In this document: one piece after another, positions 27,730 to 31,867 of the stretch
Layout: every line of letters starts with the position of its first letter
Numbering within the stretch: position 1 is the stretch's first letter
Source of the DNA: an uncultured Verrucomicrobiota bacterium
Lineage (GTDB): Bacteria; Verrucomicrobiota; Verrucomicrobiia; Opitutales; Seribacteraceae
Assembly: GCA_902580225.1 (NCBI GenBank)
Contig: CACHJU010000001.1
Location: 1-64,000, forward strand
DNA length: 64,000 nt
Direction of reading: 5' to 3'
Made by a program: the position numbers and the translations under genes
Notes under the pieces: model-generated
What the model was told of the DNA's origin: nothing
Database searches by the model: none
Seen by the model: only the letters and a program-made list of their open reading frames with translations

Positions 27730-27840
27730 CACCAAGTGAATTTTCAGTTTATGACACAAAGAAAGTTTGCCATTAAGTATCTTTTTTTAGATTATGTAAT
27801 CTTGTTCTTTTAAATTTCGCCATTTACCGTATCCAAAGAC

Positions 27841-27986
27841 AACCTAATCTAGGTTACCAACCGAGCAGGAGAGCTGCTACGGTGGTACAAGGTCGATTTT
27901 ACCGGGATACGCGGTTTTGGCACAACCGAAAATAAGCACTCCACTAGCTAGCTAGGAAAGTGCGTTAACCGAAAGGAAAACGCTCA
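27841..27986 (+). ncRNA. Candidate structured leader RNA upstream of an integrase-N-terminus-like small ORF
   Basis: Successive manually identified hairpins: AACCTA-atc-TAGGTT; AGCAG-gagag-CTGCT; GGTA...TACC; CGGTT-ttggcac-AACCG; GCACT...AGTGC; CGTTaaCC-GAAA-GGaaAACG (GNRA loop), ending at the ATG. Confidence 0.5.
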
Positions 27987-28229
27987 ATGAATATCAGTAT
28001 ACAGAATGATATCGAAGAATTGGCTCTTCGAATAGACAAAGACAACTTGAATCACCATTTATGGAATAACAATGGAACATGGTGGATTCACTACACAGTA
28101 TATCCCTCAGCGGTCACTGCAGAAAGAAAAAGGTATTCCTTAAAAACAAAAGATGTCAATACCGCTAGACTGCGAAGAGACGAGCATTTTGATCAGATTT
28201 TAACTAGGGTAACAGAGCTGGCAGCTTAG
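27987..28229 (+). CDS. 80-aa protein resembling the N-terminal DNA/arm-binding domain of tyrosine recombinases only
   Basis: NNNGTWWIHYTVYPSAVTAERKRYSLKTKDVNTARLRRDEHF resembles the integrase N-terminal three-strand/helix segment; no catalytic domain follows. Confidence 0.6.
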   Translation: MNISIQNDIEELALRIDKDNLNHHLWNNNGTWWIHYTVYPSAVTAERKRYSLKTKDVNTARLRRDEHFDQILTRVTELAA

Positions 28230-28335
28230 AATAATTAATCCTTGATCTTTGTATGTGGCGTCAGCATCAAAGGATTTGTGTGCCGGCCCCAAGAGTGAGT
28301 TTTATTTGTTGCAGGTAGCTGAATCCGTTTACAAT

Positions 28336-28366
28336 AGGATGGAGTTTAACTAAATCCTTTTTTTTT
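28336..28366 (+). terminator. Weak intrinsic terminator
   Basis: AGGAT-ggagtttaactaa-ATCCT followed by an uninterrupted T run. Confidence 0.4.
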
Positions 28367-28390: not shown

Positions 28391-31300
28391 TTAATTGAAT
28401 AAACTTGGATCTGTTCCCAGGCAGCCAAAAATTCGATCAACCGCAGAGTTATTATCTTTAAGTTTCGATAATGCATTTAGGGCAAAATCCTTTTTTTTCT
28501 GAATGGAAAGTCTTTCACAAGTCTCTCTGTTCGCTTGATCTTTTATAAAATTGTCCAAGTACTCTACTCTAGATTCCCAGTAATTTTGAGTAACTTGAAT
28601 TCGAGTTTTTAAACGCTGGTTATACCAGTCACTTTTAAGAATATTTGTTGGTTCAAATAAATCTCTAAACTTTTCATCAGTCAGTTTACATCCTTCCCAT
28701 TCACCTTTGGCCATAATTGTAAGTAGTGCCTTGAGTGGAGGGCATGCTTTTTCGATGGAATTGTCGTTGAAATATCTTGCAGCTATGTTTTTTCCTGTTT
28801 CAAGCAGATTTTTTATACTATCTGCATATTGAGCCTCATCCTGTAATTCGGGTTTTAGCATATCTTCTGGTAAGACTGAAACTGGGTCTGTAAATATTCT
28901 TCCTAGAAATTCATGAGTAAAGCTTCTTGTAATTCTATAACCTAGTAGAGATGTGGGTAAATTTTGACCCTGATAAGAAAAATCCGGAACTTTTTCTAAA
29001 TATCCTTTGGCTATCATTTCTTGTGGATTATCCTCAAAATCTCGCAGTCGGCTCCAAATTTCAGGAATTAAAAGACTTATGTCATGATTTACTTGATATT
29101 TAGGACCCACATACCCTGCGGAGGTTACGAATGCTCCTTGACCTGTTGAGGCATATGAAATTAGTGCGGCATTAAGGTCGTGTATAGGCAAAAGAGCATT
29201 AAAGGGACTTTTGGTCATAGCACCTTCAGAACCTGCACCTGTGGTAGAGGGAGATTTACCAGTAACGCTCACTATAAAATCCATAAAAAGTTCGGGTAAC
29301 TCTAAATAATGAATGGGGGCAAAACAGCATAATGGTCTAATCCCCGTTTCTTTATCCGACGGATTATTTCTCCTTCCTGGTAAAACTGCCCGAACAGGGT
29401 AAAGCACCGATTTGTGAATATTAATTCCTCTCTTTAATCTAGTACCGGCAGTTGCTAGATAAACCGAACGGGGATCAAACAAATCTGGTCTAGTTTGAAG
29501 ATAACGAGGATTTTTGGAAGGTTTTCCATTCACAATTCGTGGATTTGCTGAAGAAACAAAAGATACATCCTTCTCCGTGCTTTCTGCCACTGATTCAATA
29601 AGTTCTCTGATCGGTTTTGTATACTCTTCAAATGATAATGTATTACTAATTTGATCTTGGGCATCTTCTTTTGAAAGAGGTTCGAAATTACTAATAAAGT
29701 TTCCTGGTCTTGAGATATCTTTTTCAGTTTGTTTATCAAACCCCCGAATGATGGCATCGTCAGGTCTTTGGAATAATCTGTATTCACAATTATGAACGAA
29801 TTTTGCTGATTTTTTGAAATTACCATGTCCGATATTTTCAATAAGGTTTGTGGGAGCCAAAGTTGAAGCTGTTATATCATCTTCAGCCAAAATTTTATTG
29901 GCTGGTACGAAGTCTTTTCTTAGAGCAAATAATCTCCAAGAACCTTTTTGATCAAAACCGATACGCAAATGTCTAGTAATTAATTTAGTTCCAAGGTATC
30001 TTAGCTCATTAGCGGGTTGTCCATTTACCGAATCGACGCTGAATGCGTCTTGCCAATCTTCACCCCATTCAGCTCTATGCCTCCTTTTGATTATTAGAAT
30101 TAAATCCTTAACTCTCTGTGGAATGGATTTTAACCATAGATTGAAATCCTCGGTGTATAATGATTTGGAAGGTGTAAGAAGTTTAATTACTGAGCCAAGT
30201 GAACGACTAGGACTTAAAATCGGACGATTTCGAAGGTCATGTTTCTCGGGTTCCATAAAACGGTTAGAAAAATCCTTTTTTAAAATTTCTTTGGTTAATG
30301 CCATATCTTTTTCCCAGTCCGCAACATAAGCCGGACCGCTTACAATAGCATCGGTTATTGGCTTTGAGATTTCGGATTTTCCTCCTCCTGAAACAGTGCA
30401 TGGTTTGTGACATAAAAATCCTTCTCCCACCGTTCCTATTAGTTTCCAGGGACCATTATGTTCGGCTTTTTTCATTTCAACTTTGTAGCCCGATGGTAAA
30501 ATATAAGCAAAGTCCGGTTGCAGTCTTATTTGGTGAAGTTCATTGCCCTCCCCTTCCCAATTAATGCTTTGTTCCCTGAGACTGAAAACAGCATTTTCAG
30601 GAAGATAAATAATTGATGTGAAAGATGGATCAATAAGGTAACCGTCCTTTAGGTCATGAGTGGAACATTCCATAACTGACAAAGTGTCAGAAAATTTTTG
30701 AGGAGTGGGGGGTAAAATTTCCAAAGGATTAAATTCTTCTCCAAGATCATAGCTTGGAAAGACTACTGCACCTCCAGCATGTTCCTCTTCACCGAGACCG
30801 GATAAATTTGCAGAAAAACTAATTTGTGTTTTAACTTCCTTTTTACAATACCCAAAGTAGTTATCGGCAAGAATTGTAACGATCATTCCGGACGAATCAC
30901 GAAATGTTAATTTAAAAGGATCGCCTCCGTTGTAGGCTTCCTCAGGATCGTCAAAATACATACCGTCTCTAATTTGCCTGTCAGTAGCATCAGATTTTTT
31001 TGGTAATTGAAGGAATTTTTTTGGAGTTCCTGCCAAATGGGGAGCCACGATTACGCACCCCGTATGCCCAGTCCAACTTTCGATATCGAGTCCGGCATCG
31101 TTTTCAGCCAAAAAGGGGTCACCTCCATTACCAAAAATACTTTCAACAAAATCAAGGTTGGCAACACATCCACCAGGAGCAAAAAAACGGATTTCCAAAG
31201 ATTTCTCTCGGATAAAACCTTCAACTTCAGGACAGACTACAGGTCTTAATAAAAGCGAAACCCAACACTTTGCTGGATCTTTCTCTTTGGATGCAAAAGG

Positions 31301-31867
31301 GAAAGTCATGTCATCTGCAGGTGGATTAAGTGCGATTCTTAATAATTCTTTGGCTGCTTTTAAAGGAACAATCTTTTTATCATCGGGAGCAGGTAACCCG
31401 ACATCAGCGACATGAAATACACCCGAAGTTGTCCGTCTGTCCCGCGAGGGGTTGTGAAGAACGCCTTGGGCTACTTTATGAGAATTAATTATTTTTGAGC
31501 GAAAGCTTTGACCATTGAGCGGTAATGAAGTAATTCGTGCCAATCCATGACGATCTAGAACGAACGACTCTGTTGGCAGACTGGGACGATCACTGCCTAA
31601 TATTTTAGTGAGAAAATTTTGTATTCGCTCATCTGTTGGACATAAATGCCCTCGTAGTAAGCGAACTTTCTCTCGATATTCTTTAATCAGGGAACTACTT
31701 AAGCGTATAGCAGGATTCTGGCTTTGATCTCCAACAGTCGGAAGAGCAAGAGTAGCGAGCTTGAGGTTGGCGTAGTTGACAAGCTCTTGGTATTCATCAG
31801 AATTCGAGGAATAGCTCGCTTCTATTCCCAAAGCAGTTTGTTTACTTTTAACATTTACGGATTTCAT
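28391..31867 (-). CDS. Large (1158 aa) protein, putative PPi-dependent phosphoenolpyruvate carboxykinase-like
   Basis: VSVTGKSPSTTGAGSEGAMTKSPFNALLPIHDLNAALISY and ADNYFGYCKKEVKTQISFSANL...EEEHAGGAVVFPSYDLGEEF with about 1150 aa length match my recollection of the PPi-PEPCK family. Confidence 0.55.
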   Translation of the reverse strand: MKSVNVKSKQTALGIEASYSSNSDEYQELVNYANLKLATLALPTVGDQSQNPAIRLSSSLIKEYREKVRLLRGHLCPTDERIQNFLTKILGSDRPSLPTESFVLDRHGLARITSLPLNGQSFRSKIINSHKVAQGVLHNPSRDRRTTSGVFHVADVGLPAPDDKKIVPLKAAKELLRIALNPPADDMTFPFASKEKDPAKCWVSLLLRPVVCPEVEGFIREKSLEIRFFAPGGCVANLDFVESIFGNGGDPFLAENDAGLDIESWTGHTGCVIVAPHLAGTPKKFLQLPKKSDATDRQIRDGMYFDDPEEAYNGGDPFKLTFRDSSGMIVTILADNYFGYCKKEVKTQISFSANLSGLGEEEHAGGAVVFPSYDLGEEFNPLEILPPTPQKFSDTLSVMECSTHDLKDGYLIDPSFTSIIYLPENAVFSLREQSINWEGEGNELHQIRLQPDFAYILPSGYKVEMKKAEHNGPWKLIGTVGEGFLCHKPCTVSGGGKSEISKPITDAIVSGPAYVADWEKDMALTKEILKKDFSNRFMEPEKHDLRNRPILSPSRSLGSVIKLLTPSKSLYTEDFNLWLKSIPQRVKDLILIIKRRHRAEWGEDWQDAFSVDSVNGQPANELRYLGTKLITRHLRIGFDQKGSWRLFALRKDFVPANKILAEDDITASTLAPTNLIENIGHGNFKKSAKFVHNCEYRLFQRPDDAIIRGFDKQTEKDISRPGNFISNFEPLSKEDAQDQISNTLSFEEYTKPIRELIESVAESTEKDVSFVSSANPRIVNGKPSKNPRYLQTRPDLFDPRSVYLATAGTRLKRGINIHKSVLYPVRAVLPGRRNNPSDKETGIRPLCCFAPIHYLELPELFMDFIVSVTGKSPSTTGAGSEGAMTKSPFNALLPIHDLNAALISYASTGQGAFVTSAGYVGPKYQVNHDISLLIPEIWSRLRDFEDNPQEMIAKGYLEKVPDFSYQGQNLPTSLLGYRITRSFTHEFLGRIFTDPVSVLPEDMLKPELQDEAQYADSIKNLLETGKNIAARYFNDNSIEKACPPLKALLTIMAKGEWEGCKLTDEKFRDLFEPTNILKSDWYNQRLKTRIQVTQNYWESRVEYLDNFIKDQANRETCERLSIQKKKDFALNALSKLKDNNSAVDRIFGCLGTDPSLFN

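Follow-up and report, generated by a model that had tools for sequence, protein, structure and literature searches.

The window analysed here, i.e. the 64,000-nucleotide stretch as a whole, contains at positions 27987-28229 (+) an intact open reading frame for a stand-alone protein of 80 residues, which resembles the arm-type N terminus of integrases and ends in -LAA. A conserved leader RNA (27828-27983, +) lies directly before it. In sister genomes the small ORF is followed by a glucuronyl-esterase gene (L273:428-1738, PF22244); in the window, a downstream stretch of 117 bp (28247-28362) has 76% identity with the 3' end of that gene, of which it is a deletion remnant. The gene on the opposite strand (28391-31867, -) encodes a protein of 1158 residues, for which no Pfam or NCBIfam match was found and which, within the genus of the window, is a conserved neighbour of the small gene.

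The leader, all elements of which are on the + strand, has an aptamer of the S-adenosylmethionine (SAM)-sensing SAM-I/IV type (27824-27944, as delimited by a full-length match to RF01725). It is closed by P1, the 5' strand of which, CGTATCC (27828-27834), pairs with 27905-27911; P1 is followed by P2 (AACCTA/TAGGTT, 27841-27855), which lacks an internal loop as in SAM-I/IV, by P3 (27857-27885), which carries the invariant CAACC...GGTGG SAM-binding core, by P4 (27891-27903; GGT 27891-27893 with ACC 27901-27903), and by P5 (CGGTT/AACCG, 27912-27928), after which comes GAAAA. P3 is made up of a lower helix, CCaACCG/CGGTGG (27857-27863 with 27880-27885), and a top, AGCAG/CTGCT (27864-27878), the loop of which (27868-27873) forms a pseudoknot with 27939-27942. 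The 3' strand of this pseudoknot lies in GCACTCC (27936-27942), part of which (27936-27940) may alternatively provide the 5' strand of an anti-sequestor helix with AGTGC (27959-27963); the latter overlaps by 2 nt with a sequestor hairpin, GCGTT...AACGC (27962-27983), around the Shine-Dalgarno sequence AAAGGA (27972-27977). When checked on the sequence, the hairpins at 27841-27855, 27864-27878, 27912-27928, 27936-27963 and 27963-27982 that a previous, sequence-only reading of this DNA had proposed are present at those coordinates; its further hairpin, GGTA/TACC at 27884-27903, is really the 3' strand of P3 together with P4, and it had missed P1, the lower helix of P3 and the pseudoknot.

The leader helices are not a product of chance. 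For 20 related leaders, pairing is kept in 94.7% of cells, versus 30-40% with the partner strand slid, and both sides have changed in 9 pairs, versus a mean of 3.2 on shuffling (0 of 500 shuffles); in the same 20 leaders both sides differ in four of the five P2 pairs, and P5 is 97% paired. P1-P5 and the pseudoknot covary in related leaders, which bears out the ordered structure seen earlier, and CAACC/GGTG is present in 70/70 of those that could be parsed. The P3 loop and the strand following P5 change together across families, i.e. CGGGAGCG/CGCTCCCG, AGGAGT/ACTCCT, GAGAG/CTCTC, GAAGAAT/ATTCTTT and GAGGA/TCCTC; pseudoknot complementarity has a mean of 16.7 for the leaders' own partners versus 13.2 +/- 0.37 for swapped sequences, and by fixed-register count the pseudoknot is 87% paired in the window's family. 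A model made from the relatives has a single match in the 64-kb window, the leader itself.

In Infernal's E-value mode RF01725 matches the leader over the whole model (1-99/99), with E 0.0012 and a score of 32.6 bits that falls short of the curated gathering cut-off, 41.1 bits; at the gathering threshold no tRNA, tmRNA or other Rfam RNA was found in the leader. The sequence-only reading had named a match to a known Rfam family as an outcome that would speak against it; such a match exists, although the window's copy scores under the cut-off. Leaders of the 80-residue protein's gene in the relatives score 22-36 bits with RF01725, the window's family being systematically under the cut-off, and leaders of orthologues that exceed it occur in L337 (48.2 bits), L374 (44.9 bits) and L450/G532 (42.9 bits). 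A covariance model (R2), trained on 72 leaders of the small-protein gene alone, matches RNAs directly 5' of metK, the SAM synthetase gene, in six genomes (G332, G354, G402, G416, G480 and G531), three of these RNAs passing the RF01725 cut-off, and also matches, with E 1e-6, the RNA in L074, the best of the relatives' curated SAM-I/IV RNAs. The SAM-I riboswitch (RF00162) gave no match in the 57 relatives.

RF01725 corresponds to the SAM-I-IV-variant of Weinberg et al. 2010 (PMC2864571), the SAM-I/IV class being described as having an unsplit P2, both P4 and P5, and a P3-loop pseudoknot (PMC2864571, PMC6890682). The window leader shares with this class P1, the unsplit P2, the CAACC/GGTG core of P3, P4, P5 and the pseudoknot between the P3 loop and the 3' strand (PK-2). 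SAM-I (RF00162) and SAM-IV have the same ligand-binding core (PMC6890682) but differ from the leader, SAM-I in having a P2 kink-turn and PK-1 and in lacking PK-2, and SAM-IV in lacking P4 and in having a split P2. The leader itself departs from SAM-I/IV in its score under the cut-off, in a J1/2 that is 2 nt longer with an added pair, and in having as its target the gene of a small arm-domain protein in place of a methionine/SAM gene. Its assignment, from sequence and covariation, as a divergent SAM-I/IV riboswitch is well supported; the novelty is that of a variant and of an unfamiliar kind of target for a known riboswitch class, not that of a new class.

The nucleotides that contact SAM are, in SAM-I numbering, 6-8, 11-12, 44-47, 57-59 and 87 (PMC6890682). 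In the window's family the AUC, CAACC, GGTG and GAT of the core are kept, with the equivalents of A6-U7-C8 intact; J1/2, however, is CATAGA/CAAAGA there and in a few others, compared with AGGA/AAGA in other leaders, i.e. it is 2 nt longer, with an extra C-G pair beside the SAM-contact pairs of P1. It is unlikely, but conceivable, that the window's family has the SAM-I/IV fold and senses another ligand, e.g. SAH, methylthioadenosine or a polyamine. The altered J1/2 and added C-G pair, present throughout the family's leaders, and their systematically low RF01725 scores would fit such a change, for which the spermidine variants of SAM-I, which illustrate that an altered J1/2 and pocket can bring about a different ligand, are a precedent (PMC10853860). 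In the spermidine riboswitch, however, the P3 internal-loop pocket is also changed (PMC10853860), whereas for the window leader the CAACC/GGTG is invariant and the gene context is that of SAM, not of polyamines. Furthermore, leaders of metK occur in both forms, CATC-AAGAG and CATCC-AGAG, which argues for SAM as the ligand, and orthologues of the small gene elsewhere are under canonical SAM-I/IV riboswitches.

With respect to the expression platform, the anti-sequestor (27936-27940 with 27959-27963) has 99% of cells paired in the window's family, with modest covariation, and overlaps the pseudoknot strand at one side and the Shine-Dalgarno hairpin by two bases at the other. The sequestor hairpin can be folded in each of the 20 relatives; by a fixed-register pair count in the relatives' leaders, its helix has no covariation support. 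A terminator hairpin with a T-run is present in 39/64 leaders, mostly of Opitutaceae, and in 34/64 P1 carries GCATCAG, to which a CTGATGC in the terminator region is complementary. Either anatomy is compatible with an OFF switch, as far as direction and ligand response can be read from sequence. Bound SAM would stabilise P1 and the pseudoknot, the latter withdrawing CACTCC from the anti-sequestor, such that the sequestor could close over AAAGGA and translation would be off; at low SAM the reverse state would permit translation, and in Opitutaceae an intrinsic terminator would take the place of the sequestor. The small protein would thus be made at low SAM. Taken together, the predicted role of the leader as a SAM-I/IV-class riboswitch that turns the 80-residue protein's gene off when SAM is plentiful is given a probability of approximately 0.8.

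The gene so controlled belongs to a conserved family. Among 57 related genomes it is single copy in most (31 relatives and the window's genome), with 50-89% identity, and a scan of GTDB genomes gave 363 loci, mainly in Opitutia, with some in Lentisphaerales and Verrucomicrobiales. The leader is present at 72 of the best 80 loci, so the association of an ordered, conserved leader with a stand-alone integrase-N-terminus-like protein, as suggested in the sequence-only reading, is upheld. The dN/dS ratio is ~0.06-0.08 (0.07/1.11 and 0.10/1.21 for the window versus its closest relatives), and these data indicate a vertically inherited, usually single-copy family under purifying selection. A decayed integrase remnant or a non-autonomous mobile element, to which similarity to integrase N termini might point, is consequently hardly credible given single-copy conservation in Opitutia and beyond, the selection, the 363 orthologous loci, lineage-wise synteny, and orthologues that are all short stand-alone ORFs with no catalytic domain; the earlier argument against simple decay is therefore sustained, and its suggestion of a mobile element is not. 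In the genome, neither the leader nor the protein was found a second time. The small protein was not found in viral contigs by protein search; a loose DNA pattern gave 120 chance-level stretches there, and of 80 loci kept the RNA model matched none.

The available evidence on the protein itself is that it resembles a DNA-binding module. Its near-invariant core is NHHLWNNNGTWW.HYT.YPTP.T.ER.R.SL.TK...AR.RRD, and AlphaFold2 predicts three strands followed by a helix (E-E-E-H, pLDDT 78); fold searches against the PDB and viral structures gave nothing significant. The earlier-noted similarity to DUF6538 (PF20172) is present, the window protein scoring 17.5 bits (E 0.0032), short of the curated cut-off of 27 bits; 42/45 family members match DUF6538 at E<=0.1 (best 2.7e-6) and 7/45 match Arm-DNA-bind_3 (PF13356). 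The likeness to the integrase N termini of these families thus consists of profile similarity and the predicted beta-beta-beta-alpha arrangement. By contrast with them, the small protein is stand-alone, at 70-96 residues, has a conserved NHHLWNNNGTW stretch of its own and ends in -AA/-VA, and by contrast with tyrosine integrases its orthologues are all short ORFs without a core-binding or catalytic domain. The C-terminal residue is Ala in 69/76 distinct proteins, mostly as -AA/-VA and after a variable stretch, an end which we take to resemble an ssrA-type degron of the kind recognised by ClpXP. No full tmRNA, with a tag to compare with -LAA, was found in the window's genome, which is a 67% complete assembly.

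Riboswitch coupling, together with the appearance of a free integrase DNA-binding tip, makes the small protein a strong candidate for a SAM-linked regulator. That it is, more specifically, a short-lived trans-acting DNA-binding regulator relaying low SAM is given about even odds. The more elaborate proposal, that in the window's family a variant riboswitch with an altered pocket feeds a dedicated trans-acting regulator consisting of a stand-alone arm domain with a degradation end, appears improbable; on that proposal, a metabolite-sensing RNA would run a whole regulon via one tiny, unstable DNA-binding protein in place of many riboswitch copies.

Gene context in the relatives bears on these assignments. 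One genome, G211, has a single operon (L387/L440) with riboswitch, small protein, metK (genes overlapping, stop with start), MoxR-type ATPase and VWA protein; in L337 the riboswitch and small protein are followed by a MoxR ATPase, a protein of ~220 residues, a VWA/metallopeptidase protein and a MetK paralogue, the same set being present behind riboswitch and small protein in G532. In genus g4 the riboswitch directly precedes the MoxR ATPase of that operon, the small protein being elsewhere with its own riboswitch, and homocysteine methyltransferases are the genes behind the canonical SAM-I/IV riboswitches of G028 and G039. Such SAM/methionine-gene targets of the leader type are found in relatives, not in the window genome itself. 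The small gene has no conserved neighbours that are common beyond lineages, and three Lentisphaerales orthologues (L308, L312 and L313) have no detectable SAM riboswitch.

Two further explanations can be weighed against these arrangements. The small protein may instead act within SAM metabolism, as a functional component or cofactor, e.g. by partnering MetK or the operon of MoxR, VWA and MetK-paralogue genes; in L440, L337 and L450 it does share operons with MoxR and VWA genes and with either metK or a MetK paralogue. This is the less likely reading, in that the gene is without such partners in most genomes and the family resembles a DNA-binding arm domain. Binding of the protein to its own, autoregulatory leader, or an ncRNA to which the protein is a dedicated partner, both put forward in the sequence-only reading, would be in keeping with the co-occurrence of leader and protein, but this RNA is also found before metK, the MoxR ATPase and others where the protein is lacking, and it is homologous to a metabolite-binding class. 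An RNA-protein partnership is thus very improbable, and autoregulation is not needed for explaining the data.

Several observations relate to the operon and to other targets. The operon is sporadic (L337:5753-10911; L439; L440/L451; L450), lies under a SAM-I/IV riboswitch, and contains, sometimes with the small protein, genes for a MoxR-type AAA ATPase, a protein of ~200 residues, a DUF2201/VWA_CoxE protein and either a divergent MetK paralogue or canonical metK; the MoxR-type ATPase is found at E<=1e-40 in 5/388 genomes of the phylum, and PADLOC gave no defence system at the operon. SAM-I/IV riboswitches also precede small ORFs in L074 (G031:C5, 59.7 bits) and L075 (G004:C96, 52.2 bits), with surroundings that look like phage regions. 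In L385 (48.7 bits) and L390 a SAM-I/IV riboswitch is directly 5' of a putative N-formylglutamate amidohydrolase gene, which is unusual as a target, and in L241/L441 (G071:C84) the leader type precedes an unrelated protein of ~253 residues.

Upstream of the leader, the relatives' alignment has a conserved block, TTATGACAC-N8-TTTGC (27749-27770, +), a putative promoter/operator element that is unique at zero mismatches in its own genome. TTATGACA recurs 5' of the small gene in many families and before other riboswitch copies, and may be the small protein's operator; in a regulon search of the window's own genome with TTATGACAY-N8-KTTGC, zero mismatches returned the block itself alone and two mismatches returned 64 sites versus 34 for the control, and no regulon emerged. 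TATGACA-like motifs are present upstream of the orthologues in L308, L312 and L313. A second conserved element in the window's family, GTTCTTTTA (27804-27812, +), is presumably boxA-like, by resemblance alone. In the window's family TTATGAC is absent 5' of metK, where a different palindrome of 26 bp, CATCAACGCATCATGATGCGTTGATG, is conserved, with AATAAACTTG after it (L412-L438; L429 in the window's own genome). CATCAACGCATCATGATGCGTTGATG is absent 5' of metK in G039 and G048, and its distribution does not track that of the small protein; it probably serves another regulator. By analogy, it may be bound by an ArsR regulator of the SahR/SamR type, the motifs of which share ATC-N10-GAT (PMC4239095).

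The usual targets of SAM riboswitches are sulfur-metabolism enzymes and transporters. In the present case, one SAM riboswitch class is coupled to an uncharacterised 80-residue protein across hundreds of Verrucomicrobiota species, an association named in no paper found by a literature search of partial coverage. A large set of SAM-I/IV riboswitches is missed by the Rfam cut-off, and the unstudied operon of MoxR, VWA and MetK-paralogue genes is placed under predicted SAM control. The small protein is predicted to be made at low SAM, quickly destroyed and DNA-binding.
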